From a virus, in IMG/VR virus record IMGVR_UViG_3300017782_000155, positions 1 to 27,852 of that record: a DNA stretch of 27,852 nt; one strand, 5' to 3'. Below are positions 2,342 to 25,662 of this stretch, piece after piece; position 1 is the stretch's first letter, and every line of letters begins with the position of its first letter. A model generated the notes under the pieces. It was not told the DNA's origin, searched no databases, and saw nothing but the letters and a program-made list of their open reading frames with translations. The position numbers and the translations under genes were made by a program.

Positions 2342-5300
2342 TTAATTGTTTTTAAATTTTTCATTGTATTCTTTTTCAAAAGCAGAGGCATCAAATCTCG
2401 TTGATTTTTGCTTTTTCTTTTTTCTCTTATCTTGTTTCCATTCTAGTTCCCATTTACTCCAACCTAAAATATTAGCAATTCGCATCCAATCAGCATTTTC
2501 AGTATCTAGCGCATCTTTTATATTGGTTAATTTTTTAATACCTCTATCAAGCGGAACGTTTGTTGTTGCACTAATTAATTGACCAATAGCTAAATAAGCT
2601 GGATTGTCTAATGCAAATCCTTTTTCTTTTATTTCTTTTTTATTCCAATCAAATGTTCTACCAGCCGATCTTACTTTTCTTATTTTAGATGATACTGGAG
2701 GGGATAAATTTATTAGTTCTAAAGCGGAATCCTGCATTGGTTTTCCTTCAGCTACTTTTAATATTGCATTTTTTAGAGTTGAAATTGCAGCACCATGGAA
2801 TCCAATACCTCTTAATAATGAGTCAGCCATACCGTTGGCAATATTTCCATATTTTTGTTTTTCTTTTTCATCTTCAGCTTCATCTCCAAAAGACAAAGCA
2901 AATAAGGCTTGTTGTAATGCATTGAATATAACATTTTGTATCATACCGTAATATAATATTTTTGATATATTACTTTTCGTGTCACCACGTCCGTTTTTAA
3001 GATCACTAGCAGCTCTTTGCATAATTCTAGCATATTGAGCTGGCGTATTAGCAAAAGCCAATATAATACGCCCTAATGGGCCAGCCTGCTGTTGGCTAAT
3101 TCTATCAGGCCTGCTTGATTGTTGTGATTCCTCTGCTATTTCTCTAAAATCTAAAAATGCTTTTTGCTCGGCATCTTTTTGGGGCATACCGTCTTTAACA
3201 TAAGATTTTACCCTGTTTCTATAAAATGTAGCGCCACCAGATGCAATAGCAAAACTATCCGCAATTTGTGTTGGTAAAAATCCTAATTTCAATAGTTTGT
3301 TTACAAAAGCTTTGGCTTTATTATCAGATTCAGCTGCTATTTCAGCAATATCAGCTTCATTAACGTTTATTTTTAAACCATTTCTTCTTTCAACTAAATA
3401 GTTTGAGTTCATTATGAACATTACGTCTTTCCAATATTGAGGCTGATTAGCAAATGCTGTTGAAGCTTTAAATATATTATTATCGTTCCAATTTATAAAG
3501 TTAACAGATGATATAGTTTGTAGCACCGCGGATCTCATATTAAAGAACATGATTGCCCCAACAGAGCCGTTAAGCCAATCTACAAATCTGGATGTTAATC
3601 TATCGTTACCAAATTTTCTATTGCTACCAGATTTCATGCGCTCAAGCATGTTTTCTAAAGCCATTTTATAGCCCTTACCATACGCTGCCTCAAGTTTATT
3701 TAAATTAGCTTCATTAAATATTTCATCAGCATTTGTTTGCCATTTAGATAAAGCTTGTTTTCTTGTAGTTGTATTTAATCCTTGTAATAAATCTGTTGAT
3801 ATTGTTCCTACAAGCCAATTTTTATCAGGCGCAGGGTATCCCTCTACATTAATAGCCGATAATTCATCAGCAAACTTTTTTAATTTTTCGTTTGATTCTA
3901 TATATTTATTTAATGTTTTCCCATCTGCTATTGATAGTCCCGGAACTTTTAAACCTTGTTTTGTCCACACATATGTTCTTAAAGCATCACTTACAGAATA
4001 TGGTTCTCCCGGTATTTTTTTCTTTAATTCTTTTGGTGCTATTTCAGCAATTTTTTTAATTTGGTTATATTTTTCAGCTAAAACAACTCTAGCTTGTGAT
4101 ATAGCCACATTGCCTTGAGCCCAAGGATCTAATAAATTTTCTTTTATCCAAGCAAGATGTTTATTCCCTTCTTTACCTTTACCAACAAATTTTCTTACTA
4201 ACCCTTCAAAATCTTGAGCGGATGGAGGTATACCAAGCATATCGTATTTACCTTTATCTTTGCCGACTATTGCAGCTTTTGATTGGCCGTATCTTTTTCT
4301 TGATTCAATTTTTGTAGAATTTTCTAAAATATCATTAAACTCAACATCTAAACTTTTCTTTTTATCGCTTTTACTTAATTTTGATTTTAAAGTTTTATAA
4401 TCGGTGCCTTTACTTTTAGGCTTACCCGCTAATGATAATTGAACAACTCTAGTCAAAGTTGTAAATTTATCAGTAGATTTTCCAGTTGATTTCCAACTAA
4501 CAGTGACTCTACTTTGCAAACCAGATTCAAATAAATCTTTACCACCAAATTTAGCAATATCTGAACCAATTCCCCAAACTCCAGCGGCTGTTCCATCTAA
4601 AAATACCATATATTCTAGAGGAATACCTTTGTTTTTACCCTTAGTAGTGTAAAAAGCTTTTACTAAATTTCCATAATCATTAAGAATTTCAGATTTAGAC
4701 TTAACCACCTCAAACAAACTATTTTGTTTATCTGTAATTACTTTTTTACCATTAATAAATTTTGGAAATTTAATTGTTGTGTCTCCCACAATAATTTCAG
4801 AATCTTTAAAACCAATTCTTTTTAAATCTTTAATAATATCATTTTTAATACTATCACTAAACTTTTTTAATTTATTAGCTAGCCCTTGAGGTAAAACACT
4901 GGTATCAATTTGTATAAAACTTCCGGTTCTATCAGTATGCTTAGTTTTAACTTCTATGCCAAATTTTATACCCTTGTATTCTATTTCAATATCTACTCCA
5001 GTATCACCAACAACTAGCTTTTCTAAATCTGGTTTATTTAAAATTTTTATACCTGGTAGTATTTTTTCTAATTTTTGAGCTAAAAATAATTCAGCAGCCT
5101 GTCCTGTTCTGTTTTTCATAAAATCTACAGGATCAAAATCTGGAAATTCTTTTTTAAGGACTTTAGCTTTATTCATAAATTCTTCAAAAGCTTCTTTAAA
5201 GTCTACTGTTTTAGATGCAAAAGTAGATATAATTTTACCAAACCCAGGTGATAAAATAACTTCTTCAGCTAATTGTTTTTTCTTTTTATTTTTTGAAAAT

Positions 5301-8300
5301 TTAGCCCCAACAGTTCGTTCAATTTTTCTAGCCACAGTAGCCTGCTCGTTTATATTTAATCCAGCAATTTCAAGAGCGGAAGGCGTCATATCAAACCCTA
5401 ACTGAACAGCTATACCTCTAGCTAAAGCATCTTTTCTTCCTCTTACTTTAAAAAATTCTTTAAATTGTTCTTTAGTAGGCCTTAGTCTATCATATAAATC
5501 TACCCCTTGAGCTTCATTTTCAACAAACGCTCTTCCTTCGTCTCGTGCTTTTCTTATGTCTGCTTGTTTTGTTAATCTTCTATTATATTTTGTAAATATT
5601 TTTTTGTCAGCCGGAACTAATTTTTCGGCTTGTATAAAAAATTGAATAGGCATATGATTAAGTATACTAGAGTATTCTTTATCTAAAAACGCGTCAAAAT
5701 CTTTCATTTGTGCTTTTACACTTTTATAAAGATTAGCCCCATAAGTTTTTACTAAAAAATTTCTAAACTTTTTATCGTCAATGCTAACTTCATCTAGTAC
5801 TACCGCATCGTAGACAACATCAAATATTTCTTGTGCTAATTCTGGCGTTACTATAGAGGTGTTTTCTTTTAGCTTAGATTTTGGTATTGATTCCTCCGTC
5901 TGCAACAAACTTTGATCAACCATATCTTCTATAGATTGACTATCTGTATCAACAACTTGTATAGTTGTAGTTTCCCCACCAGTTTGTTTTTCTATCGATG
6001 TAGTTTTAATCTCTTTAACATATTGTTCTTTAACATCTAATAATGACTTATACGCTATACCCCCTGTTCCTTTTCCTTTACTAGAGCCATATATATAACT
6101 AAATAAACTTCTTTTATTTCCGTCTACTGTTGGTTTGTAATTTTTTAAAACTCTGTCAGTAATTCTTTCTCTTATTTTTCTAAGAGCTTCTGATTGTATT
6201 TCTTTAGGTAATCCCCCTAGGTTTTTATCAGCAGCTATTAAGTTACTTAAATACCCATCCAGTATTTGATTCCCCTCAATTTCTTTATAAACGCCCGATA
6301 CAGCTTTATTATTTTTCTTAAAGTCATCTTGAGTTTTAATTTCTTCAGTAATGTAGCTATCTAGTGTATTAGACATAGAAGCTGTGCTAACCGATTTCTT
6401 TTTAATTGTTTGTTTTTTGTCAACTATTTCAACACCGTCTTTTGATGTAGTAATTTCGTAATTTAATAACTTGTTTTTCTTATTAACATTAGTATTAAAA
6501 TTTCTAATAAAATCTACTATATCTTTACCTGTGTTTAATTCAATTTTTGATTTACCAATTATATTATCAAAAGTATTTTTAAGAGATCTTTTAATACCAT
6601 CAATTTTACTTTCATCTAAATTAATTTTTTGTTTAGATATTATATCTGAAAATATAGTAAAATACTCTTCATTGGCCCCTTTTTTAAGTTTACCTGTTTT
6701 TTTATCAGTATAATTTTGAGTAATCCTACTTTCTATTTCTTTTAAAATTTGCGTCCCCTCTTCGCTTTTATTTAAATAATCTTTGAAAGAGTCCACTAAA
6801 GGCTGCATTGATGCGTCATTCACTTTAAAAGCTCTAGACATAACATAATGTAATAACTCATGTCCCAATACATTTGTTGATTCTGCTTCAGCGACCGCCT
6901 TTTTATTAATGAATATTTTAGCCTTACCTCCTGATTCATCTAAAAACATGCCCTCAGCTTTACCCATGCCTTCTGGTAAGTTACTTTCATTTACATAAGT
7001 TATATCTAAATCTTCTTTATTAACGCCTTTAAGCTTGTTTAATTTTTCAAAAACAATTTCACTATCTATAAGCGCTTCTGAAATTTTTCTATCATTCGCT
7101 GCATCAATTTCATTAAATTCCATTATATCAGCATTTTGCTGGTATCTTTTGTCAATTTCTTTTTTAACCTCTTCTTGGTGTATTTTTGAGTATTTATCTG
7201 ATCTTAAATCACCTTGCGATTCTCTAATTACATCCAAATTCTCACCGTATTGTATTAACTCAGTTTTAGTTAAACCATCAAGTTTGTTTTTTAATTTGTT
7301 TTTATGCTCAATAGACTGAGCCTCTAGCTTTTTAATTTTGTTTTCAAAAACTTTCTTTTTTCTTTTTGTTGGAGCCGCTTCTAAATCATTTTTAGCATTT
7401 ACTATTTGTTGATTAATTTTTAAATCTTCTTCTTTCCAAGACGCTGGTGCAATATATTCATATAAAGCGTCTTTATTTTGTGAAGTTTTAAATTGTGTTA
7501 TTACAGAACCTGTTGAGTTTACAGGGCCACCTAAAAAGCCACCAATAACAAAACTATTGAATATGTTTTTAAAATAAGCTGGGTCCTCATCAAATAATAA
7601 AGCATCACTTAGATCTTGAATATAACTATTTGCAGCTTCAGTCGCGCCTTCTTGTAAAAAGCCAACTGCCCCAGCCCCAATTACTTTTGCTGTTGCACCA
7701 AAAAATCCTTTTGTGAAATCTTCAATAGCTTTCTTTTTAGGGCCTTTGCTTAGGTTTTTAATCTTTCCTAATCCCTTAAAAAATTTACCACCCAAATATT
7801 CCGTTGCCCATTCTGATCCACCTTTTATTAAGGCAGAACCATATAATTCAGAAGCGGTTGCCCCCGGTCTATTTTTTAAATTTTCTCTAAAATCATTTCC
7901 AGAGGTAGATGCACCAAGTAATGCCCCGCCATATACTGGGTTTGCAATTGCTAAAGCTAAAGATGGAGCAGAAAAAGCGGCTTGACTTGCGGCTAAATCT
8001 GCAGCATCACCAATTCTTCCTGCGTATACTAAATCCTGTACATCTAATACATTACCTTCGTTATCGTATTTTTTTACACTTATTTCTTTTGCTAGATTCA
8101 ATTGTTCATACATTGGTTCTAGATCAATTTTATCACCATGTTTTCTTGCCCAATCACCCAAGCCTTCATCTATATCATCTGCTAAAGAAACCGTACTCAT
8201 AAGGTCTACCAAACCAGCAGGTCCAGTTGCGGCTATAATAGGAGAAGCTATCATGTCAATAGCATCAACAATACCTCCACCAATTTCCATAGTACCTATG

Positions 8301-8653
8301 GTTGCATTGTACATTTTTTCCTGGGCCCAATCTGGTAATAAACCAAATATGCTAGTTCCAGGGGTTGGCACACTGCCTATAGCATCAAAAGTAGCTTTTC
8401 TTTTTGCTGTATCTCTATTTTCTAAAGCTTGAGATACCGATAAACCAGGATCCGATTTGGACTCCATATCGGGTGCTAAAGTTTCCTCCACAACCGCACC
8501 CGGTGTTGTGGGAGTTTGAAAATCCTGCTCAACAGGATCTATTTGTTTTACTTCAGGATTGTTTTTTAAAAGCTCTTCTAAACTTATATTTCTTCTACTT
8601 GCTTCACCTTGTAATTCTTCTAAAGTAAGCTGCACTCCATTGTATTCAAACAT
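2342..8653 (-). CDS. Giant internal virion / polyvalent protein with metallopeptidase and nuclease-like domains
   Basis: This 2103-residue protein is probably carried in the virion and ejected with DNA, as with the large internal proteins of T7-like and marine podoviruses. Residues about 120-380 contain several Gly/Ala-rich hydrophobic stretches that could insert into membranes. Residues 410-510 are Lys/Glu-rich and probably coiled. A zincin metallopeptidase motif HELLH lies at 598-602. Residues about 1184-1250 match a PD-(D/E)xK nuclease layout: Glu1188, Asp1221, Glu1234-Val-Lys1236. Residues 1685-1925 form a helical region ending in AFANTPAQYARIMQRAASDL and hydrophobic helices, typical of the C-terminal part of large polyvalent phage proteins. 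The C-terminus is basic. It follows two smaller probable internal proteins with a six-base gap. Coding and class are strong; domain activities are inferred from motifs. Confidence 0.88.
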   Translation of the reverse strand: MFEYNGVQLTLEELQGEASRRNISLEELLKNNPEVKQIDPVEQDFQTPTTPGAVVEETLAPDMESKSDPGLSVSQALENRDTAKRKATFDAIGSVPTPGTSIFGLLPDWAQEKMYNATIGTMEIGGGIVDAIDMIASPIIAATGPAGLVDLMSTVSLADDIDEGLGDWARKHGDKIDLEPMYEQLNLAKEISVKKYDNEGNVLDVQDLVYAGRIGDAADLAASQAAFSAPSLALAIANPVYGGALLGASTSGNDFRENLKNRPGATASELYGSALIKGGSEWATEYLGGKFFKGLGKIKNLSKGPKKKAIEDFTKGFFGATAKVIGAGAVGFLQEGATEAANSYIQDLSDALLFDEDPAYFKNIFNSFVIGGFLGGPVNSTGSVITQFKTSQNKDALYEYIAPASWKEEDLKINQQIVNAKNDLEAAPTKRKKKVFENKIKKLEAQSIEHKNKLKNKLDGLTKTELIQYGENLDVIRESQGDLRSDKYSKIHQEEVKKEIDKRYQQNADIMEFNEIDAANDRKISEALIDSEIVFEKLNKLKGVNKEDLDITYVNESNLPEGMGKAEGMFLDESGGKAKIFINKKAVAEAESTNVLGHELLHYVMSRAFKVNDASMQPLVDSFKDYLNKSEEGTQILKEIESRITQNYTDKKTGKLKKGANEEYFTIFSDIISKQKINLDESKIDGIKRSLKNTFDNIIGKSKIELNTGKDIVDFIRNFNTNVNKKNKLLNYEITTSKDGVEIVDKKQTIKKKSVSTASMSNTLDSYITEEIKTQDDFKKNNKAVSGVYKEIEGNQILDGYLSNLIAADKNLGGLPKEIQSEALRKIRERITDRVLKNYKPTVDGNKRSLFSYIYGSSKGKGTGGIAYKSLLDVKEQYVKEIKTTSIEKQTGGETTTIQVVDTDSQSIEDMVDQSLLQTEESIPKSKLKENTSIVTPELAQEIFDVVYDAVVLDEVSIDDKKFRNFLVKTYGANLYKSVKAQMKDFDAFLDKEYSSILNHMPIQFFIQAEKLVPADKKIFTKYNRRLTKQADIRKARDEGRAFVENEAQGVDLYDRLRPTKEQFKEFFKVRGRKDALARGIAVQLGFDMTPSALEIAGLNINEQATVARKIERTVGAKFSKNKKKKQLAEEVILSPGFGKIISTFASKTVDFKEAFEEFMNKAKVLKKEFPDFDPVDFMKNRTGQAAELFLAQKLEKILPGIKILNKPDLEKLVVGDTGVDIEIEYKGIKFGIEVKTKHTDRTGSFIQIDTSVLPQGLANKLKKFSDSIKNDIIKDLKRIGFKDSEIIVGDTTIKFPKFINGKKVITDKQNSLFEVVKSKSEILNDYGNLVKAFYTTKGKNKGIPLEYMVFLDGTAAGVWGIGSDIAKFGGKDLFESGLQSRVTVSWKSTGKSTDKFTTLTRVVQLSLAGKPKSKGTDYKTLKSKLSKSDKKKSLDVEFNDILENSTKIESRKRYGQSKAAIVGKDKGKYDMLGIPPSAQDFEGLVRKFVGKGKEGNKHLAWIKENLLDPWAQGNVAISQARVVLAEKYNQIKKIAEIAPKELKKKIPGEPYSVSDALRTYVWTKQGLKVPGLSIADGKTLNKYIESNEKLKKFADELSAINVEGYPAPDKNWLVGTISTDLLQGLNTTTRKQALSKWQTNADEIFNEANLNKLEAAYGKGYKMALENMLERMKSGSNRKFGNDRLTSRFVDWLNGSVGAIMFFNMRSAVLQTISSVNFINWNDNNIFKASTAFANQPQYWKDVMFIMNSNYLVERRNGLKINVNEADIAEIAAESDNKAKAFVNKLLKLGFLPTQIADSFAIASGGATFYRNRVKSYVKDGMPQKDAEQKAFLDFREIAEESQQSSRPDRISQQQAGPLGRIILAFANTPAQYARIMQRAASDLKNGRGDTKSNISKILYYGMIQNVIFNALQQALFALSFGDEAEDEKEKQKYGNIANGMADSLLRGIGFHGAAISTLKNAILKVAEGKPMQDSALELINLSPPVSSKIRKVRSAGRTFDWNKKEIKEKGFALDNPAYLAIGQLISATTNVPLDRGIKKLTNIKDALDTENADWMRIANILGWSKWELEWKQDKRKKKKQKSTRFDASAFEKEYNEKFKNN

Positions 8654-8659
8654 AATATA

Positions 8660-9913
8660 TTATTTAAGTGTTTTTACTAACTGAGATGATGATAATAATT
8701 TACCATTAAGTAATTTCTGCACAGCGGCTTGGTCAGTTAAATCTATAGACATTGCTGGGGTATCATTAGAAGGATTGCCGCTACTATTTAATGTAAATAC
8801 TTTATAACCATCTTTAAATTTCATTATTTTAAATCCGTAAGGTCTATTTCTTAAATTATTTATTTCTTCAACAACGTTGGCATAATTAACAATTTTTCCT
8901 TTACCACCTAATAGATTTTTTGTGTGTCTTTCATATAATGTATCTACATAAGTTTTAATAGTGTCAACATTTTTATTTTCATTATTTTTCCCCTTTTCTA
9001 AAGACTGTATTTTTAACTGATTACTTAAGTCTTCTGATCTACTAATACCTTTATTTATAATTGATGGTCCAAGTAGATTTTTGTAATATTGTTTTAAAGT
9101 GCCATCTCTTTGTTTTTCAAAATCTATCATTCCTTCTTTTGCAATTCCACCACCAATATAGTTAGTATTTGCGACATCTCCGTATTGACTATCACCTTGT
9201 ATTTTATTTTTATAAGTCCAATGGGCTGAAGGATGCGAAATTAATTCCGTATCAATGTTACTGTCTATTATTTGATTTATACGTTCTTGACTTAATTTTC
9301 CTCCTAAAGTTTTTTGCTCTGATTCAATCGCTTCTTCAATTCGTTTTCTTGTGTTTAGATATGTTTGAGAATATTCTGCTTCAGAACCAGTCACAGGTTC
9401 GTTCTTTTTCATTTCTGCCATTATAACAGAAAGCTTAACACCATTTAAGGTTGGGTCATTATCTTTATCTAAAGCATATTTAGGATTATCTTCAATAGAG
9501 TCTATATATTTCATCATCTCCGGGTTATCTAATTCAATTTGCCCGTTTTTAACTTTACCAACTAATTCAAAAAAGTCATTACCAAAGTCAGCATTTTTTT
9601 GAAGTTTTCTAAGCAGCATTGCTTGCTTAGTTTTACTTTTTTTATCAAAAAATTCAGACCCAACATCTCTAGTAACCATCTCTCTCATTAAATCTTGATA
9701 GCCATCACTTAAGTATTCATACTTTGCTAAATCTTGTTCTGTTGTTAAAACCCAATTAGCACTAGATGCATCTCTTCTTATTTCTTCTTTTTCTCTATCT
9801 TGTTTAACTTTTTCGATAGTACCCGCTACTTGTCCAAACCCTTGTTGGAAAGCTTTTACTCCTGCTGTCATATCTTCGACGATACCGTATTGCTGTGGAT
9901 TTCTATAACTCAT
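8660..9913 (-). CDS. Putative internal virion (ejection) protein
   Basis: This 417-residue protein is mostly helical and charged, without a signal peptide or clear membrane span. The N-terminus (MSYRNPQQYGIVEDMTAGVKAF) leads into a probable coiled region (GTIEKVKQDREKEEIRRD, about residues 31-50). The middle is Glu/Lys/Asn-rich, and the C-terminus has a short beta-like stretch (YGFKIMKFKDGYKVFTLNS). No enzyme motif is visible. It lies between a Gly/Ala-rich 280-aa protein and the giant 2103-aa protein with 6-10 base gaps, matching the three-gene ejection-protein block of podoviruses (small, medium, large). That position is the main reason for the call; sequence identity to a named family is not recognised. 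Confidence 0.65.
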   Translation of the reverse strand: MSYRNPQQYGIVEDMTAGVKAFQQGFGQVAGTIEKVKQDREKEEIRRDASSANWVLTTEQDLAKYEYLSDGYQDLMREMVTRDVGSEFFDKKSKTKQAMLLRKLQKNADFGNDFFELVGKVKNGQIELDNPEMMKYIDSIEDNPKYALDKDNDPTLNGVKLSVIMAEMKKNEPVTGSEAEYSQTYLNTRKRIEEAIESEQKTLGGKLSQERINQIIDSNIDTELISHPSAHWTYKNKIQGDSQYGDVANTNYIGGGIAKEGMIDFEKQRDGTLKQYYKNLLGPSIINKGISRSEDLSNQLKIQSLEKGKNNENKNVDTIKTYVDTLYERHTKNLLGGKGKIVNYANVVEEINNLRNRPYGFKIMKFKDGYKVFTLNSSGNPSNDTPAMSIDLTDQAAVQKLLNGKLLSSSQLVKTLK

Positions 9914-9923
9914 ATTTTATTAT

Positions 9924-10766
9924 TTAATTAGGGCTCTCATAACTAGCCGGGGAGTTTGTTAAATTTTGAAAAAAACTAAAATCATCATTTGATTTATAAT
10001 TATAACCATAATTTTGATTTGGCGTTGCACCTAAGGTATTATTGCCACCGCTGGCGTTATTGTTTCCCGACCCAAAATTGTACATTAAATTTTTACCAAA
10101 ACTTCCTTTACCGCCAAATAATCCGCCACCAATAATACCTGCAGCGCTACCTAAAGCGGATCCAAACATTGATCTAGCTTGGTTGCCATAACCCGCGGCT
10201 TGTTGTCTAGCCCCGCCAGCTTGAGCAGATAAACGATCTAATTGTATATTGTCCCTAGACTCTTGTGCCCTAAATTTAAAAGCTTCGCCTTGTGCTTGTG
10301 CGCCTTGTACCCTTGCTGCTTCGCTCATTCTTAATTGTTGCATTCTTTGTTCCCCTTGAGCTCTTAATCTTGCATTTTGTGCTTCTTGTTTTTCAATACC
10401 AGCAGCAATCCCAGATTTTGATCTTGCAGCGGCTTGTGCTAAAGCAGTAGCCCCACCTGCTCCAGCGCCCGTGGCTCTTAATGTATCCAAGGTAGTAGCT
10501 AAACTAATATCTGCTTCAGCTCCTTGTATTTCTGCAGCTTTTGTTGCTACTTGCAAATTAGTAAATGGATTTGTAATCATTCCACTTAAATCTTTAATGT
10601 TTTCGTAAGGATTTATAACCTGTTGTCTATTAGCTTCAAAAGAACGTATTTTAGCTTCAAACTCTGCCGCTTGTTGCCTAGCTTTTCTAGCTCTTTTTCT
10701 AGCCCCAAAACCCCCAAAGATATTACTTATAAGGCTTACACCGGTTCCTATTAATGCTAAACTCAT
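9924..10766 (-). CDS. Putative internal virion protein, Gly/Ala/Gln-rich
   Basis: This 280-residue protein has a hydrophobic N-terminus (MSLALIGTGVSLISNIFGGFG) followed by a basic cluster (ARKRARKARQQ). A long Ala/Gln/Arg helical stretch (about residues 75-195) comes next, then a Gly-rich hydrophobic segment (about 200-225, MFGSALGSAAGIIGGGLFGG). The tail is low-complexity Asn/Gly (about 230-260). This layout is like the small ejected core proteins of short-tailed phages, which contribute to a channel across the host envelope. It directly follows the tail nozzle gene and precedes two larger probable internal proteins. No catalytic motif is present. The role is inferred from composition and gene order; the membrane helices would be the feature to test. 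Confidence 0.7.
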   Translation of the reverse strand: MSLALIGTGVSLISNIFGGFGARKRARKARQQAAEFEAKIRSFEANRQQVINPYENIKDLSGMITNPFTNLQVATKAAEIQGAEADISLATTLDTLRATGAGAGGATALAQAAARSKSGIAAGIEKQEAQNARLRAQGEQRMQQLRMSEAARVQGAQAQGEAFKFRAQESRDNIQLDRLSAQAGGARQQAAGYGNQARSMFGSALGSAAGIIGGGLFGGKGSFGKNLMYNFGSGNNNASGGNNTLGATPNQNYGYNYKSNDDFSFFQNLTNSPASYESPN

Positions 10767-10775
10767 ACTTTTATT

Positions 10776-12020
10776 TTAATTTGATGATAATACCGTTTCA
10801 GATGAAACAGCAAATAATTCTTTTTTCGATGTCTCCGTAGTGTTTGTTTCAAACACAGATGATACATACATTCCTTTTATTCCTGACATAGCTTCTCCAA
10901 ATATTATTTCGTTTTCATCAATAGCTGAACTATTTTGTAAATAAGATAAATATTTGTTTTCTTTTTTATTAAAAGCCTGTAGGCCAGGTAAATCATAATC
11001 TAAAGCGTTGCTATAGGCGCTTATATCAAAAGCACTATCAGTGAAGTTAGCATCGTCTAAATCTGTTTTTATGTTATTGACTTTCCAGCCAGTTGTTCCT
11101 TCGTAAGATAAATTTTTAAATACTTTTACCGCCGAAGGAGTATTATTTAATATTACGTTTACTTTTGATGTATTGTTTACATTATAAAAGTTATTGTAAT
11201 TCGTTGTTTGATAATGTTTGTAAATATTTGGGCCATTAAATGTGTATAATACATTTTTTAATGTAAACCCTGCGTTAGGCTTATAAGTATAAAAACTTGT
11301 CCAACCTTTTGAGGATTCATCATACCCCAAAGTATAATATTCTGAATCGTTTTGAAGCGATAGTACATATTGATCTTTTACATTATCGTATATACCAACA
11401 ATTTTATTAGCTGTTTTTAAATTATCTTTAAACCAACTTCTCATACCATAATATGACACCTCAGTATGGCCATCTCTTGTTAATCTAATCACAACCCCTC
11501 TTTTTTTATCAGCAAAGTATTTCATTCCGCCTTTTATTGCAAAACTTTCAGGATTTGTACTAATTCCGTATCTTCCTAAAAAAGGTATTACTTGTCCAAT
11601 AACTACATTACTTAAGGATTTTATTGAGCTGCCTTCAGCGGTAAATACCGCGTCTTTATCTATTAATGCTCTGCTAATTTTATCTTCTTGTAATATTAAT
11701 AAATTAGTGTCTTCTGCGTGTAGCTTTTGTATACTACCTTGTGCACTATCAACAGCTTTAGTATTAGATTTTCCAATACTAAATTCATTTAATTTATTTA
11801 CACCTGTTTTAGAATTATAAATACCAGAATATATTAAAGCATTTTTTCTTCTTCTTTCTGCATAATTTTCATCAGTAGCAAAAGCTCTGGTGGCTAATTC
11901 CATAGACTGATTGTTAAACCCACCTTTTATTCTGGATTCTTCAATATGAAATTTTCTGCTTGCATGAGCGGGTTTTATAATAAAGGTATTAAAATATCCT
12001 ATTTCTTTTGCTATTCCCAT
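10776..12020 (-). CDS. Tail nozzle/stabilisation protein, C-terminal portion encoded as a separate gene
   Basis: This 414-residue protein is beta-rich. It contains GGFNNQSMELATRAFATDENY, then ALIYSGIYNSKTG, SIQKLHAEDTNLLILQEDK and RALIDKDAVFTAEG. From memory of related marine and crAss-like phages, these phrases occur in the second half of one very long tail stabilisation (muzzle/nozzle) protein whose first half matches the upstream 1081-aa gene. Here the two halves are separate genes in different frames, 34 bases apart, with stops in both frames between them. The start at 12020 follows an in-frame TAA two codons upstream, so it is a clean initiation site. It probably assembles with its partner to form the distal tail tube. 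Split status needs alignment to confirm. Confidence 0.72.
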   Translation of the reverse strand: MGIAKEIGYFNTFIIKPAHASRKFHIEESRIKGGFNNQSMELATRAFATDENYAERRRKNALIYSGIYNSKTGVNKLNEFSIGKSNTKAVDSAQGSIQKLHAEDTNLLILQEDKISRALIDKDAVFTAEGSSIKSLSNVVIGQVIPFLGRYGISTNPESFAIKGGMKYFADKKRGVVIRLTRDGHTEVSYYGMRSWFKDNLKTANKIVGIYDNVKDQYVLSLQNDSEYYTLGYDESSKGWTSFYTYKPNAGFTLKNVLYTFNGPNIYKHYQTTNYNNFYNVNNTSKVNVILNNTPSAVKVFKNLSYEGTTGWKVNNIKTDLDDANFTDSAFDISAYSNALDYDLPGLQAFNKKENKYLSYLQNSSAIDENEIIFGEAMSGIKGMYVSSVFETNTTETSKKELFAVSSETVLSSN

Positions 12021-12054
12021 GTTTTAAATATTACATGTTTTACCACATCTCTAA

Positions 12055-15000
12055 TTATGGCGTTCCTTGACATGATCTAGAATTATCTATTGATTGTACC
12101 ACGCCATTACTAGTCCTAACATCTGCGTATTTTCCTTGATCGTACTGCCCACCAATAGGTTGTGTTAATATAACACCAAAGAATGTAGAACTTAAGTTTG
12201 AATTTGTATATATTGTATCTCCCTGTTCTATAGCGCTAGGACCAGCTAATTGTGGTTTTGTTATATATAATGTTTGCGTTGATGGTTGACATAATCCTGG
12301 TACAGAAGATGCTACAAAATAACTAACTAAAGTTCCTGGCGTTATTGTTACATTTACAGTGTGTTCGTCAAATGAGGGTGCCGAACCAGTATGCCCAGCA
12401 TCTACAACTTTAATTTTTACGTTATAAACATTACCGACTGTGCTTACAGCCATATAGGTGTTTAACTTAAGTTGTCCCGGGCTTGGATTACCAGCATCTC
12501 CCGTGTTTGTAATTGTAAATAAATTACTGGATGTCACGTTTGCACCGCTTAATAACACTTCTTCTATGCTATACACTAGACCTAAATCATCCCTAGTAGT
12601 GTCCTTGCTTCCGTTTTCTGTTCCAGCCGCCGCGTTTAAAACAACACTACCTATAGTATAATGTAATGCGTTAGCTGCGCTTGCCAATGAATTTGAAAAT
12701 GTTGGCGCTGCGTTCGTTAATGTTATTACTAATGTGCCATTTAGTTGCTCCCCGTTACTATCTGTTACTGTTATTGATACATTATAAGACTCACCGCTGG
12801 TTCCATAATAAAACACAGGATTAATAACCCTAAGGTTACCTCCGTTTATATCAAAATTATTTTTTAAATCTGTATTTAAATCAGATTGTGCAAAAACATT
12901 ATTTAAAACAAAAGACAAACTAGACATTGCACCACCTGATGAATTTGTAGCGCCAAGTGCTCCTATAACTGTATTTGCAACTGCTCCCTCTGAAAATGTA
13001 GTTCCTGATATTGTTAATGTTGCTGGCCCACCAGTGTTGCCTAAGATTTGCGTATTTAATTCTGTTACTAATCCAGTTAAAGAAGTTTCATAATATATAT
13101 CCAACGCGGACTCTATCGGTTCTGTTTCAAATATTGATAAGCCTAAAGTACCTAAAAAGTTCAAAGGCTGTTGATTTTTAGGACTACTACTAACAGTAAT
13201 AGATTTCCCGTATCCATCTGGTAATTCAGCTAATAAAGGATTCTTGCTGTAATTATGAAAAACTAAATAAGTATGTCCTAATTCTTGTGCTGATCCAGTT
13301 GCTGTGGTATCAAACAATTCTAAACCATGATCCATTGCAGTACCTATACTTATCACGTCTACTTTACCTTCTTCAGAATTATATATAAAAGGATCTGAAT
13401 TTGTGCCCGCTGGAGTTAAAGCTCCATCTACTATTACAGGAAATAAAGCCGATTCGCTAGGGCTTGTAGTTTCTTCTATAATTCCGCCATCTGCAGGTTT
13501 TTTTGGAACTTTATTTATGTTGTCTCCGTGTAAAACTAACCAAGTTCTTTTATCTGTATCGCTAAAATATAAACTGGAATGAGCAGATTGTACGTTGGAG
13601 TTAGGGATATTATCTATAGCATGTGGAGCATATATATTATAATATTCTTGCTCTGTTTGTTTTACAACAGCTTTCCATGAATACCAGCCAAAAGGATTTG
13701 AATTTGAGTAAGCGTTTGGAATTATATCATTAAACTCAATTCTTAAAGCGTATCCAAGCCAATTAGCAGAATCTCCTGTATGTACAGGCACTCTTACTGA
13801 AGATTTATTAGCATCAGAAGGTAATATAACTGGGGATTGTCTTCCATATTTATCAGAAAGTACTAAACCTATTTGATAAGTACGCCTTGATTTAACAGAT
13901 TGATATGGGTATTGTATATTCCAAGTTCCAGTACTTATTCTGTTTGCATATCCCGCTTCAAAATTAATTGAAGGTAAATTATAATTTTCTTGAAAATTAC
14001 CATATATAAGTCGGCTTCCAGCAATTTCTTGTGCTTTAGCTTTTCTTGGTACGTTGTCAAAAACTCTCGTTAATTGATCTTCCGGTAAAGTTTTAAAAGG
14101 TAGTGTTAACTCATAATTATAAGTAAATAAACTACCTACAACGCCATAAGAAGCATTATTAGTAACATCATTATCTGTTAATGGTATTTCAGCAACTGCT
14201 TTAATTCCAGGGTTATCAGCTTCTTTATAAAGTATTTCAATTTTATTTATGCCATAATCAGAAGTTACATTACCAGATGGTAAATCAACTCTTAACTGAA
14301 CCCTCCCAACATCATTTATAAAAGAATCAACTTCTGTTGTTGATGCTGCAGATGCTATTTGCGCATCAGTTAAGCCATCCTCGTGGTATCCTGAATAAGC
14401 AGCATTATACATTTTGGGTATAAAGCATGTCTGCGTAAACGGCGATATAACGGAATATTCTCCATCCTCAAATTTATATCTATACGCAAATTTTATAAAT
14501 TCTTCCTCAATTCTATCTTCAGAATTTTTAAAAGCTAAGGTTACAGTAGCGCTAGCACTAGCTGGTTTTGTTAATGTTATTGTTAAACCATTACTGCTAA
14601 TGTTTTTAACGGAAGTGTCAGCGGGAATTCCAGATCCAGTAACAGCTTGTCCTATATAAATATTATTATTAACACTACCAGTATAAGTTATACTATCTGA
14701 GCCTGATGTTGTTGCAACCGATTGGGTTGTAGTCAACTTCTGTAATCCTGTTTGATTTAATGTAGGGTGTAAAATATTCGGAGCGTTATAGGGATAATAC
14801 TTGGCTACGCTAATTTTATCTTCAGAATTATAATAAGATGTGTTTTCTAAAGCTTTCGTTATATTTATTTTCCTAGGTTGGTTGTTGTTATCTGTCCAAA
14901 ATAACAAATCATCTATTATATTAACCCCAGTAATTAAATGACTACCACTAAAGTTTAAAAAATTTGATGCGTTATTTATTACAGTAGTTGGAGAAGAAGT

Positions 15001-21039: not shown

Positions 21040-23451
21040 TTATCTTGGATCAAATTGTTCCAATCCAAATCCACCTAAGTTATCAAACCCAGCGGATTCA
21101 AAGTTTTTTGGTGGTTTTCCAGATTTTCTCTGGTCTATAAGTTCACTTTGTTGTGAAGCTTGTATTTTTGTTCTTTCGTCTTTACGATCTTCTTTGTACT
21201 CTTCTTTTTTATTAATCACCTGATTGTCCTGCTCCTTAAGCCTCATATTAAGCTGAAATTCAAACTCCATTAGCTCTTTTTTAATTTCTGCTTCTCTTTC
21301 AAGTTTTGCAATATCAAACTGTGATTGTGCTTGTGCGATTTGTACTTTGCTTTCAGCAATCCCTTGCTGTTTTTGTATTTCTGCGGCGGCTCCCGCTTGA
21401 GCTGACTGAGCGTTAGCTTGTGATTGCGCTTGGATATTTTCTTGTTGAATTTGTCTATCTCTATCAAACTTTTGCTTTCTTCTTAGTTTTAATAATTGAT
21501 TAGCTAACTTTAAATTTTTTATTTCTCTAACATCAATAGCATCTTCTAATTCTATTTGCTTTTGTGTAATTGCCATTTGTATATTATTTTCAAGCAATTG
21601 TTTTTCTTCATCATCGGGTGCTAATTGTAAAAATATACCAAAATCATGTAAATGTAATTCCTTCATTTCCTCTAACGCACCTACATTAAATTTTCCTAAA
21701 GATTGCAAGAATGAATTTTTAACATTAGAATACTCCAAAACATCAGAAACTCTTAACGCAATAGCTTCAGCTGTTTTTAATGTTAAATATAAACCTGCTT
21801 GTAATATATGCCTGGTAGCAGTATTTGAATTAGCTGCTGCTATTTTTTGCAACCCAACTAGTGCATTTCTATCCGGTACACTCCCGTCTCTTGCTTCATT
21901 CAACCCTGTAACATCTCTCATCATTTGCAGATAATAATTATAAGATTGTATTAAGCTTTGTATTTTTGAACCTCCAGAACCCGCTCTTAATTCTTGTATA
22001 GGTACTCTACCATTATTAAATTCACCGTCTTGTGTCATTGATCTACCAATAACAGAACCTGTTTGAAAATACATATTCAATGCTTCCTGCGGATTGTAAT
22101 TAGTTCCATTACCTAAATCAACTTCTGCTAAACCATCGGCATCTAAATAAACACCATCGGGAACCATACGAGATAAAACTTGTTGAAGCTTTAAATGTGT
22201 AATTTGAATCATATCAGCAAATGATGTCATTCTGCTAACTAACGATTCAGTTTTTCCTTTGTACATTCTAGGCGCTACAATATTGTAACTCATCTGAACT
22301 TTTGTAATATCAGATTTAGGCCTTGTCATATTAACAGCCTTTTGCCATTTTAATAATTTATCATGACCAACAATTTTTGCACCTTCATATAAACATTCTA
22401 TAGATCTATTTACTTTTTCAAATCTAGCTCTAGAATCTTTAGGAGGATTAAATGTATCGTCTTTTTTAATTGCTTTATCTGCTCCGCTATTAGTTTCTTT
22501 TATTTTATATACTTGGTTTTGGAATGTTTTATATTCAAAATACAATACATTTACAAAATTTTTATCAGCAGAATTAGTTCCAAGCTGATTATATAATGTA
22601 GAACCATCACCCTTCCCTTCAATTTCTTCAATATCTTCGTTTGTTAATTTTGGAAATTGTTTCTTTAATTCAACCAAACTTACTCTTCTAACTTCGCCAA
22701 CATAATATAAATCATCAAAATATGGTGAATCCGTGTAAGAATATACTAAATCAGAAGGATCAACATATTGTAATTTAATACCTTCAGCAGTATTAAAACT
22801 ATTTTTAACGCACCCAATGCCTAAAACAGTAATATCGTAATCTAATCTTTTCTTTAATAATTCATATTTATTAATTTCAAAAACGTTATTAATTGCTTGC
22901 TCTTCGGCAATTTCAACTGATTGTTTATAATCAAGTTGCATGTGTAATTCTAATTCCTGATTATTAGCAGGTAAACTTTTAGGATCGTTCTCAAACATAT
23001 TAATACCCAGTTGTTGTTGAGCAGCTTGATAATATTCTGTATTGCCCATATCTCTAAGTATACTTTGAACATATTTTGTTCTTTTTTCTGTTGAAATATT
23101 ATCAACTGAGAACGCCTTTAAATCATATGCTCTTTCAGCAATACCGTTAACAACTATATCCACAAACTTTGGAATAATAGGTACTGGCTTCCAATCTAAA
23201 TTTAGATAAGATAAATCACCGTTAATGGATAATTCATCTTTATATTTTTTAATGCTTTGTTCGCCTCTAGCATATAACCTAAGGTTATGGTAGTTATCTC
23301 TATTAGAGAAATAGCGAGATCCTCCTGAATCTTTTTTGAACCATTCTGACTCAACAGCTTTAGCGATTTGAAGCCCATAATCTAAACCTCCTTTTTCTGC
23401 GTCGCTAACTGCTTGACTCGGAAAAATACCTTTTGGTGATACTCTTGCCAT
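21040..23451 (-). CDS. Portal protein
   Basis: This 803-residue protein directly follows the large terminase: the terminase TAG is immediately followed by this ATG. Its size and order match portal proteins of marine and crAss-like podoviruses, which form the dodecameric ring through which DNA enters and leaves the head. Early segments include LSYLNLDWKPVPIIPKFVDI and VNGIAERAYDLKAFSVDNIS. The wing/stem region includes the phrase GLNEARDGSVPDRNALVGLQ and helical KIAAANSNTATRHILQAGLY. The last ~185 residues (from about 617) are Gln/Lys/Glu-rich helical and probably form a long coiled barrel or a disordered tail, ending with a Gly/Pro-rich stretch (SGKPPKNFESAGFDNLGGFG). The portal role is strong by synteny and length. 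Confidence 0.85.
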   Translation of the reverse strand: MARVSPKGIFPSQAVSDAEKGGLDYGLQIAKAVESEWFKKDSGGSRYFSNRDNYHNLRLYARGEQSIKKYKDELSINGDLSYLNLDWKPVPIIPKFVDIVVNGIAERAYDLKAFSVDNISTEKRTKYVQSILRDMGNTEYYQAAQQQLGINMFENDPKSLPANNQELELHMQLDYKQSVEIAEEQAINNVFEINKYELLKKRLDYDITVLGIGCVKNSFNTAEGIKLQYVDPSDLVYSYTDSPYFDDLYYVGEVRRVSLVELKKQFPKLTNEDIEEIEGKGDGSTLYNQLGTNSADKNFVNVLYFEYKTFQNQVYKIKETNSGADKAIKKDDTFNPPKDSRARFEKVNRSIECLYEGAKIVGHDKLLKWQKAVNMTRPKSDITKVQMSYNIVAPRMYKGKTESLVSRMTSFADMIQITHLKLQQVLSRMVPDGVYLDADGLAEVDLGNGTNYNPQEALNMYFQTGSVIGRSMTQDGEFNNGRVPIQELRAGSGGSKIQSLIQSYNYYLQMMRDVTGLNEARDGSVPDRNALVGLQKIAAANSNTATRHILQAGLYLTLKTAEAIALRVSDVLEYSNVKNSFLQSLGKFNVGALEEMKELHLHDFGIFLQLAPDDEEKQLLENNIQMAITQKQIELEDAIDVREIKNLKLANQLLKLRRKQKFDRDRQIQQENIQAQSQANAQSAQAGAAAEIQKQQGIAESKVQIAQAQSQFDIAKLEREAEIKKELMEFEFQLNMRLKEQDNQVINKKEEYKEDRKDERTKIQASQQSELIDQRKSGKPPKNFESAGFDNLGGFGLEQFDPR

Positions 23452-25662
23452 CTATTGTATTATTTTTGAAAAATTTCCATTATTGTTATATTTAGAAAAA
23501 CTAAAATTAACTTTGCTTTTTAATTCTCTTGTTTGATTTGGTGCATATCTATTTTTATTGCATGCCATAACCGCTAAGCCTGAACTTATCGCCGCATCAA
23601 ATTTTGTTCTTTTGTTTATATCAAACTTAGCCCAATCGTTTAATGTACTATTAAAATACATATCGCCGTAACTACCATCTTCTTTTTCACCTACGTAGTT
23701 ATTTATATAACTTTCAATTGCAGCAGCATGAGCTTGTCTAATATCTTCACTTGAATTCGGTATACCTCCAATTTCTTTTTCAGTAACCGATAATTTATTC
23801 CATATTTTATCAGGTCTATTCATTGAATAGCCTCTATATCCTCTTCGTTTTAAATAGTATAATAATCTAGGCTTGTTGTTTTCTGCTAGTATTGGCATAC
23901 CGTAAAAGTGTAATGCCATTAATATATCTTCAAAAAACATTTCTGCTGTTTGCGGTCTAGCTATATATTCTAAAAAAAACATATTAGCAGGAATTTCTTC
24001 CATGCTAAACTTTGTGAGACCGTGTAAAGCGCCCTTAGATCCTTGACCGTCGGTAGTCCCGGATATATCGTAGCTATCGCAGCCAAATGCACCGCTATGT
24101 TCGTTTCCAGGATATTTAATTCCATTTTTTAGTATTACTTTATTTTGTAAATGTGCGGGTGGAACCCAACTAACATTAAATCTTCCGTTTGGATTAGGTA
24201 TAAATTCAACTTTTGTATCTTTAATACCATTTTGCCATTGAAAGCTTCCTTTTGTAACTAAAGCGCTGTACTTTGCTTCTTCGTTAAAGTCTACTTGCTC
24301 GTATATTTTTACTAAATTAAATATACTATTTTTTGTTTCGTCTCTAAATGCGTGCTCTTCAGTTCTTGGAAACTGACGATAAAATTCATTTAAACCGTCT
24401 TGATCCCCTTTTAATCCCTCAACTTCATTCTCCCAATGTTCAATAACCCCGATGTCGATATTATCTTCTTGGTGGTCTTTGACAGGGTTGCTCGGTGTGT
24501 TAAAGACAGGTATTCCATAAGAATCGATGAATCCTTCGAAATTCCATTCCATAGGTATGAACAAAGAATATAATCCCGAGCGAGTCTGTCCATTTTTATT
24601 CCGTTTAGTAACATCTGAATTATTATATAATTTTTTAAAATTCTCGCCTCCTTTGTCAAGAGAATTACTCGTTGACCCCATCATACATTTGCCTATTATT
24701 CTCGAACCGAGCCTGAGGGTGGTTTTTGTGACGCGCCAGTTATTGAGGATGTTTTCCGGACGCTCCCATTTTCCAGCTTCATCATGGACGAGAAGTGTGA
24801 GCTTCTCTCCATCATAGGAATTATCTCCGGTATTTTTCCAATCGATGGTGGTGTCCAATCCGGCAATTTCTTGATGTCTATCCTTCGACTCGAATCTTTT
24901 ACGTGTAAATTTCGAAGCGGGTACTCTGTACGCGAGTTCTGTCTTGGGGCGATCCATACCGTCCTGAATGGGTCTGAAAAAGAATGGATAATTGATCGAT
25001 ATTGGTACCACTTTATCTGTGAACATTTTCTTCGCATCGGCTCCAGATTTGGACAGTATTCCGTACCGTGCATCGGAAGATATGGTAGCCAAGTTAACTG
25101 TCTCCGCGGATGCCATAAACGAAAAACCTGAACGTCTATTCTTGAGATAGCACATTCCGTAACACCTTCTATCTGCTTTACACGCTTCCCAATAAATAAA
25201 GAATAATCTATTGGCTTCTCGAAAGTCTGGTCTCCCAACATCAATCTTGGTCCACTGCAAGTACATATAGTGAGTGCCAGTAATATAAGTGGGAACCCCT
25301 TTACTTTTGAACCAATACCCTTCATCTCGTTTAGTAAATTCTTTATCAATATATGCATGCCATCTTTGTTTAAATTCGTCCGAATAATCCTTCCAATCAA
25401 ATATACTCTTGATTGCTTTAAGCTCCTTAGGATACTCGTGTGGAGTCCACTTGTCATTGTGAGTATCAACTTCTTTAGATTTTGGCAACGCAATTTTTAA
25501 ATTCTGTATGCTATACACTTCTCCTATTTGGCCTGTCTTTGATATAACAATAATGTCATGTTCCTCATTATATCCATATTCCCATTTTTTAGATTTATTC
25601 AATCTTTTAATGCTGGTTATTTTTATGGGTTCAATAACTTTATATAAACTTTGCTTGTACAT
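23452..25662 (-). CDS. terL: Terminase large subunit
   Basis: This 736-residue packaging motor has an extended N-terminal region (about 1-160) with YWFKSKGVPTYITGTHYMYL, a phrase typical of crAss-like and related large terminases. The ATPase has a divergent Walker A (KNRRSGFS, 174-181), Walker B with catalytic Glu (LTLLVHDEAG, Asp294-Glu295) and a coupling motif (MMGSTSN, 327-333). The nuclease domain shows the RNase H-like acidic triad: Asp529 (FGCDS), Glu594 (ILAENN) and Asp689 (KFDAA). All key residues are present. The DNA from about 24400 to 25270, spanning most of the ATPase, has markedly higher GC and different wobble use from the rest. The start overlaps the upstream stop by one base (TAATG). 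Confidence 0.95.
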   Translation of the reverse strand: MYKQSLYKVIEPIKITSIKRLNKSKKWEYGYNEEHDIIVISKTGQIGEVYSIQNLKIALPKSKEVDTHNDKWTPHEYPKELKAIKSIFDWKDYSDEFKQRWHAYIDKEFTKRDEGYWFKSKGVPTYITGTHYMYLQWTKIDVGRPDFREANRLFFIYWEACKADRRCYGMCYLKNRRSGFSFMASAETVNLATISSDARYGILSKSGADAKKMFTDKVVPISINYPFFFRPIQDGMDRPKTELAYRVPASKFTRKRFESKDRHQEIAGLDTTIDWKNTGDNSYDGEKLTLLVHDEAGKWERPENILNNWRVTKTTLRLGSRIIGKCMMGSTSNSLDKGGENFKKLYNNSDVTKRNKNGQTRSGLYSLFIPMEWNFEGFIDSYGIPVFNTPSNPVKDHQEDNIDIGVIEHWENEVEGLKGDQDGLNEFYRQFPRTEEHAFRDETKNSIFNLVKIYEQVDFNEEAKYSALVTKGSFQWQNGIKDTKVEFIPNPNGRFNVSWVPPAHLQNKVILKNGIKYPGNEHSGAFGCDSYDISGTTDGQGSKGALHGLTKFSMEEIPANMFFLEYIARPQTAEMFFEDILMALHFYGMPILAENNKPRLLYYLKRRGYRGYSMNRPDKIWNKLSVTEKEIGGIPNSSEDIRQAHAAAIESYINNYVGEKEDGSYGDMYFNSTLNDWAKFDINKRTKFDAAISSGLAVMACNKNRYAPNQTRELKSKVNFSFSKYNNNGNFSKIIQ

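Follow-up and report, generated by a model that had tools for sequence, protein, structure and literature searches.

The window analysed here (27,852 nucleotides of DNA from a marine phage whose host is probably among the Bacteroidetes) encodes a giant protein of 2103 amino acids (positions 2342-8653; this and all other features of the window given below lie on the minus strand), in which residues of about 1157 to 1415 form a domain whose membership of the PD-(D/E)xK nuclease superfamily is well supported. The chances seem about even that this domain is a metal-dependent nuclease with an HhaI/Hjc-like core, acting as a swappable payload of a polyvalent ejection protein and cutting DNA that is already in the cell.

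Conserved residues and homologues

The original prediction had placed a PD-(D/E)xK nuclease-like domain at positions 4874-5116, which correspond exactly to residues 1180-1260 of the 2103-residue open reading frame, and its reading of the motif was accurate: GQAAELFLAQKL begins at residue 1184, GVDIEI at 1219 and GIEVKTK at 1232, with E1188, D1221, E1234 and K1236 in the places assigned to them and E1234 13 residues after D1221. The domain thus carries the signature of the superfamily, i.e. an acidic residue on the first helix, followed by an aspartate and, one strand further, by (D/E)xK. Counting the spaced motif (E-x(25-40)-D-x(8-19)-[DE]xK) was rejected as evidence for a nuclease, since its 11 matches in the giant protein equal chance (13.1 +/- 3.6 in shuffled sequences). 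The protein is rich in lysine, glutamate and aspartate, which makes the count uninformative, and homologues were therefore needed.

Searches with the nuclease domain against Pfam, PHROGs, NCBIfam, PADLOC and PDB sequences returned only noise, while the whole giant protein as query yielded four relatives. The anchor for a wider search was the conserved C-terminal block of the protein (residues 1438-2072, positions 2438-4342), which is common to all relatives; with it, 10 viral loci were recovered, along with 8 from MAGs of bacteria or archaea, and a wider alignment gave at least 586 matching stretches in viral contigs, 80 of which were kept. A domain profile run beside the anchor recovered L065 (E 3e-21), a profile of the core recovered L112, L114 and L115, and a profile scan recovered L039 (E 4e-20). 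In L005, L052, L064, L088 and L099 the slot is filled by a second, divergent group, with L062 standing apart; when the two subfamilies were compared by profile (L062 excluded), the probability was 95.7% (E 1e-8), against 0.2% for an unrelated slot domain. Weak tblastn matches led further to stand-alone cyanophage proteins (S-8S53, P-SSM2, P-TIM40 and AG-345-D19), which matched the slot nuclease in profile comparison with a probability of 98.1% (E 1e-13). The L005 group, L062 and L099 were chosen from slot contents after an ExK had been seen, so that, against selection bias, weight was put on the homologues found by sequence only (L065, L112, L114, L115, L039 and the cyanophage proteins). The domain was found in 13 of 91 relatives in total.

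The same nuclease thus occurs on its own among the hypothetical proteins of T4-like cyanophages, as PSSM2_192 of P-SSM2 (AAX44570.1), WLW37558.1 of S-8S53 and PTIM40_181 of P-TIM40, and this form is covered by phrog_26930, a PHROG of unknown function. The stand-alone genes adjoin replication and metabolism genes (recombination, primase-helicase, MazG) and not virion genes, which indicates that the nuclease domain as such is not tied to ejection.

Among 12 slot domains, the only invariant residues are D1221 (the catalytic Asp candidate, positions 4991-4993), E1234 and K1236 (the ExK motif E1234-V-K1236, 4946-4954), and Y1335 and K1338 (a YxxK motif on a helix, 4640-4651), while E1188 (the first-helix acid, 5090-5092) is kept in 11 of the 12. 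An alignment of 17 sequences with 14-60% identity to the window, in which the stand-alone cyanophage proteins are included, contains exactly six invariant columns, and these are E1188, D1221, E1234, K1236, Y1335 and K1338. All four residues named beforehand are therefore conserved, and the nuclease motif does lie within the predicted stretch of residues 1184-1250; the full domain turned out to be longer (about 1157-1415, i.e. 259 residues at positions 4409-5185) and to include the invariant Y1335-x-x-K1338, which the prediction lacked. With a dN/dS of 0.18-0.19, the domain is fast-evolving but under purifying selection, with the motif residues best kept.

REase-like folds can lose catalysis, and the domain could accordingly have retained the fold as a structural or DNA-binding module that is no longer a nuclease. 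As it is precisely the catalytic residues that are the most conserved positions, under purifying selection, we consider this very improbable.

Predicted fold and structural neighbours

AlphaFold2 gave a pLDDT of 46 with two sequences, and a pLDDT of 79.8 and a pTM of 0.74 with 12 homologues. The latter model is predicted to have the REase-like, alpha-beta-beta-beta-alpha-beta core. Its first helix (model residues 27-42) contains E1188, with D1221 just before or at the start of a core strand (66-70), E1234 and K1236 in the next strand (73-80), and Y1335 and K1338 in a helix (173-185). A Foldseek search of the model against the PDB gave no significant match, while against viral models it returned the P-SSM2 protein and two other entries. 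VIA-align ranked the restriction enzyme R.HhaI (PDB 6uke) first (Z 8.3, 157 residues, 3.4 A), followed by archaeal Hjc resolvases, MspI and I-Ssp6803I, and all of its best ten matches are PD-(D/E)xK nucleases. A Z near 8 is middling by VIA-align's own note, and the weight of these matches comes from the fact that ten of ten belong to one superfamily, together with their agreement with the conserved residues. The claim of a PD-(D/E)xK nuclease-like domain is in this way borne out by predicted fold, structural neighbours and conservation in homologues alike, and neither of the two outcomes that were named beforehand as speaking against it (a structure lacking the REase-like beta-sheet core, or loss of the residues in homologues) was seen.

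Any closer link to HhaI has the status of a lead. In a joint alignment all six signature residues of R.HhaI are in register (the HhaI query sequence being identical to 6uke at 258 of 258 residues), and hhalign to the single HhaI sequence was not significant (probability 0.9%). R.HhaI, a type II restriction enzyme, being the best structural match with the same six residues raises the possibility of a specific cutter of the restriction-enzyme kind, aimed at resident prophages, plasmids or other phages as an anti-rival or anti-defence measure, with the phage's own genome lacking the sites. Four-base palindromes are not strongly avoided in the window, however, the lowest ratio of observed to expected being 0.69 (CATG); the ratio of 0.84 for GCGC says little, and palindrome avoidance was on the whole uninformative.

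The archaeal Hjc resolvases, which are the second-best structural matches (Z 5-7) and give weak profile matches (E about 0.6), point to another alternative, in which the nuclease serves the phage's own DNA, as an ejected Hjc-like enzyme that resolves junctions or processes ends and so readies the genome for circularisation, recombination or replication. Together with the position of the cyanophage homologues near recombination, primase-helicase and MazG genes, this likeness keeps own-DNA processing alive. What speaks against it comes from the distribution of the domain among closely related phages.

The variable slot

The nuclease lies in a variable slot of the giant protein (residues about 1115-1437, positions 4343-5311), directly before the C-terminal block. 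Compared with L002, the protein of the window is about 95% identical over most of its length from about residue 526 onwards, whereas residues 1115-1415 are only 40-70% identical. L004 and L005 share 89.5% of their DNA upstream and 94.6% downstream of the slot, and yet their slots (1.0-1.1 kb) are unrelated, one containing an EH-motif domain and the other the PD-(D/E)xK domain. Slots are non-homologous in 6 of 31 pairs of which the C-terminal identity is at least 90%. In 12 of its 13 carriers, 12-78 residues separate the end of the nuclease from the conserved block. Between the window and L005, the DNA is about 83% identical in the 7.6 kb that precede and 88.7% identical in a stretch of 1.9 kb that follows, with most of the middle of the giant protein having no DNA match.

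Since unrelated modules take its place in near-identical phages and no more than 13 of the 91 relatives carry it, the domain does not provide a step that their common life cycle requires, for which reason processing of the phage's own DNA appears unlikely despite the likeness to Hjc. This exchange of modules speaks for a part in an arms race and against an indispensable action on the DNA of the phage. That the slot behaves as an arms-race cassette would also suit the restriction-like cutter aimed at rivals. Neither an immunity-like gene nor a partner methylase was found travelling with the nuclease in the loci compared, which makes such a specific cutter improbable as well. A 112-residue open reading frame just after the giant gene (positions 1885-2223) was rejected as an immunity gene, since it is missing beside the same nuclease in L002 and L112; it is also absent from L005, and its likeness in L065 is confined to the first 24 residues.

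Several other modules were seen in or near the slot. One slot domain, which has a [YFL]EHxxP-like motif and is not recognised by Pfam, recurs in L026 (9014-10000) and L029 (9014-10000), as well as in L003, L004, L011, L018, L021, L036, L041, L044, L057 and others; it is an alternative to the nuclease as payload and possibly another nucleic-acid enzyme. A HAD-like phosphatase domain (FDFDDTL...LTAR...FADD) is found near the slot in 56 of 91 giant proteins (L009, L011, L018, L020 and others); L039, L114 and L115 have both it and the nuclease. Upstream of the slot, the giant protein of L021 has an N6/N4 DNA methylase domain (PF01555, E 3e-6; residues of about 1942 to 2068). In L003 two overlapping frames (7902-11909 and 11890-14094) take the place of a single giant gene, with the break at the end of the slot, which may be a frameshift, an assembly error or a real split.

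The giant protein as a candidate ejection protein

In the window, the genes for the terminase large subunit (positions 23452-25662; phrog_6681, E 6e-166), the portal protein (21040-23451; phrog_6547, E 1e-151) and virion structural proteins are followed by those for an Ala/Gln-rich protein of 280 residues (9924-10766; present in 88 fetched loci) and a protein of 417 residues (8660-9913; weakly conserved), both of which are candidate internal or ejection proteins by gene order, and then by the giant gene. The same order is known for podovirus ejection proteins, as inferred from the T7-like gene order. The giant protein further contains a zincin-like metallopeptidase region (6533-6997), with HELLH at residues 598-602 and E663 as candidate third ligand; HExxH is present in 81 of 91 relatives, all 81 of which have a glutamate at the position of E663, and the nuclease carriers L005 and L062 are without HExxH. 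By eye, residues of about 830 to 960 (about 560 to 700 in L005) have the look of sigma-factor region 2, an assignment that was dropped, as Pfam gave it no support.

The C-terminal block distantly matches a protein of 2482 residues of Tenacibaculum phage Gundel_1, which has an HEFGH motif of its own and is deposited under the label 'structural protein'. Phage-type polyvalent proteins, which are injected with the phage DNA, have been described with an HExxH...E zincin signature (Iyer et al. 2017, PMC5512222), in which HEXXH is joined by a Glu in the helix after it and which is frequent among them without being universal. In the protein studied here a zincin and the nuclease are found in one chain, with portal and terminase in the same window, and relatives add HAD-like and methylase domains. 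Reading the giant protein as an ejection protein is favoured by the gene order, the zincin HExxH...E, the Gundel_1 relative and this precedent (PMC5512222), while carriage of the nuclease in the virion and an attack on host or resident DNA are suggested by gene order, polyvalent-protein architecture and cassette swapping.

If the domain is indeed an ejected nuclease that cuts DNA already in the cell, the conserved C-terminal block would probably hold the giant protein in the virion as a packaging anchor and take it through the ejection machinery, so that it would enter the cell together with the phage DNA. The built-in zincin would then probably free or activate the payload, after which the nuclease could cut resident DNA, be it the host chromosome, a plasmid or a rival phage, while the incoming genome might escape through sequence preference, through modification or because activation is delayed. 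On a wider scale, we tentatively envisage, as a possibility somewhat less likely than not, a large lineage of uncultured marine phages in whose ejection protein there is an effector slot, passed from phage to phage as a cassette and holding at least three unrelated payloads (the HhaI-like nuclease, the HAD-like phosphatase and the EH-motif domain), each of which would be a pre-made weapon against the DNA or defences of the cell that comes without an immunity gene.

If true, this would show how, ahead of any expression of their own genes, marine phages act against resident DNA or defences, and it would provide a function for hypothetical proteins of such well-studied cyanophages as P-SSM2. Near-identical phages that differ mainly in a putatively injected payload moreover constitute a natural experiment.

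Comparison with known systems

The concept itself is already known from polyvalent proteins and MuF toxins. As regards the family with its E-D-ExK-YxxK signature, the slot it occupies and the link to hypothetical proteins of cyanophages, no earlier description was found in the libraries searched or with the terms used on the main text of PMC5512222, and the curated libraries tested do not recognise this nuclease family. On ejected nucleases in internal virion proteins, nothing specific was found in the literature searched, the scope of which lay mostly outside subscription journals.

MuF polymorphic toxins (Jamet et al. 2017, PMC5576092), which belong to temperate phages, resemble the present case in that variable effector modules sit on a phage protein that is probably delivered into the cell. 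Those toxins have the payload at the C-terminus, whereas here it is internal and is followed by the conserved C-terminal block, about 635 residues long; a cognate immunity gene was not found beside the nuclease, nor a tyrosine integrase in the records of eight relatives, some of which are fragments, and a Pfam scan of the whole giant protein up to E 10 gave no MuF domain. With Hjc (e.g. PDB 1gef) the domain has the core fold in common, but Hjc has about 120-140 residues, whereas the domain of the window has about 259, with the YxxK helix and C-terminal strands in addition. R.HhaI is the closer structural match, having E, D, ExK and YxxK in register, and differs in that the domain of the window is part of a candidate ejection protein with no partner methylase known.

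With polyvalent proteins, as presented in the main text of PMC5512222, the giant protein shares its very large, multidomain build, its occurrence in a phage with portal and terminase, and the combination of a zincin HExxH...E with unrelated enzymatic domains. A term search of that main text did not find an REase-fold domain, and the giant protein differs from the proteins presented there in having such a domain, placed in a defined slot ahead of the conserved C-terminal block.
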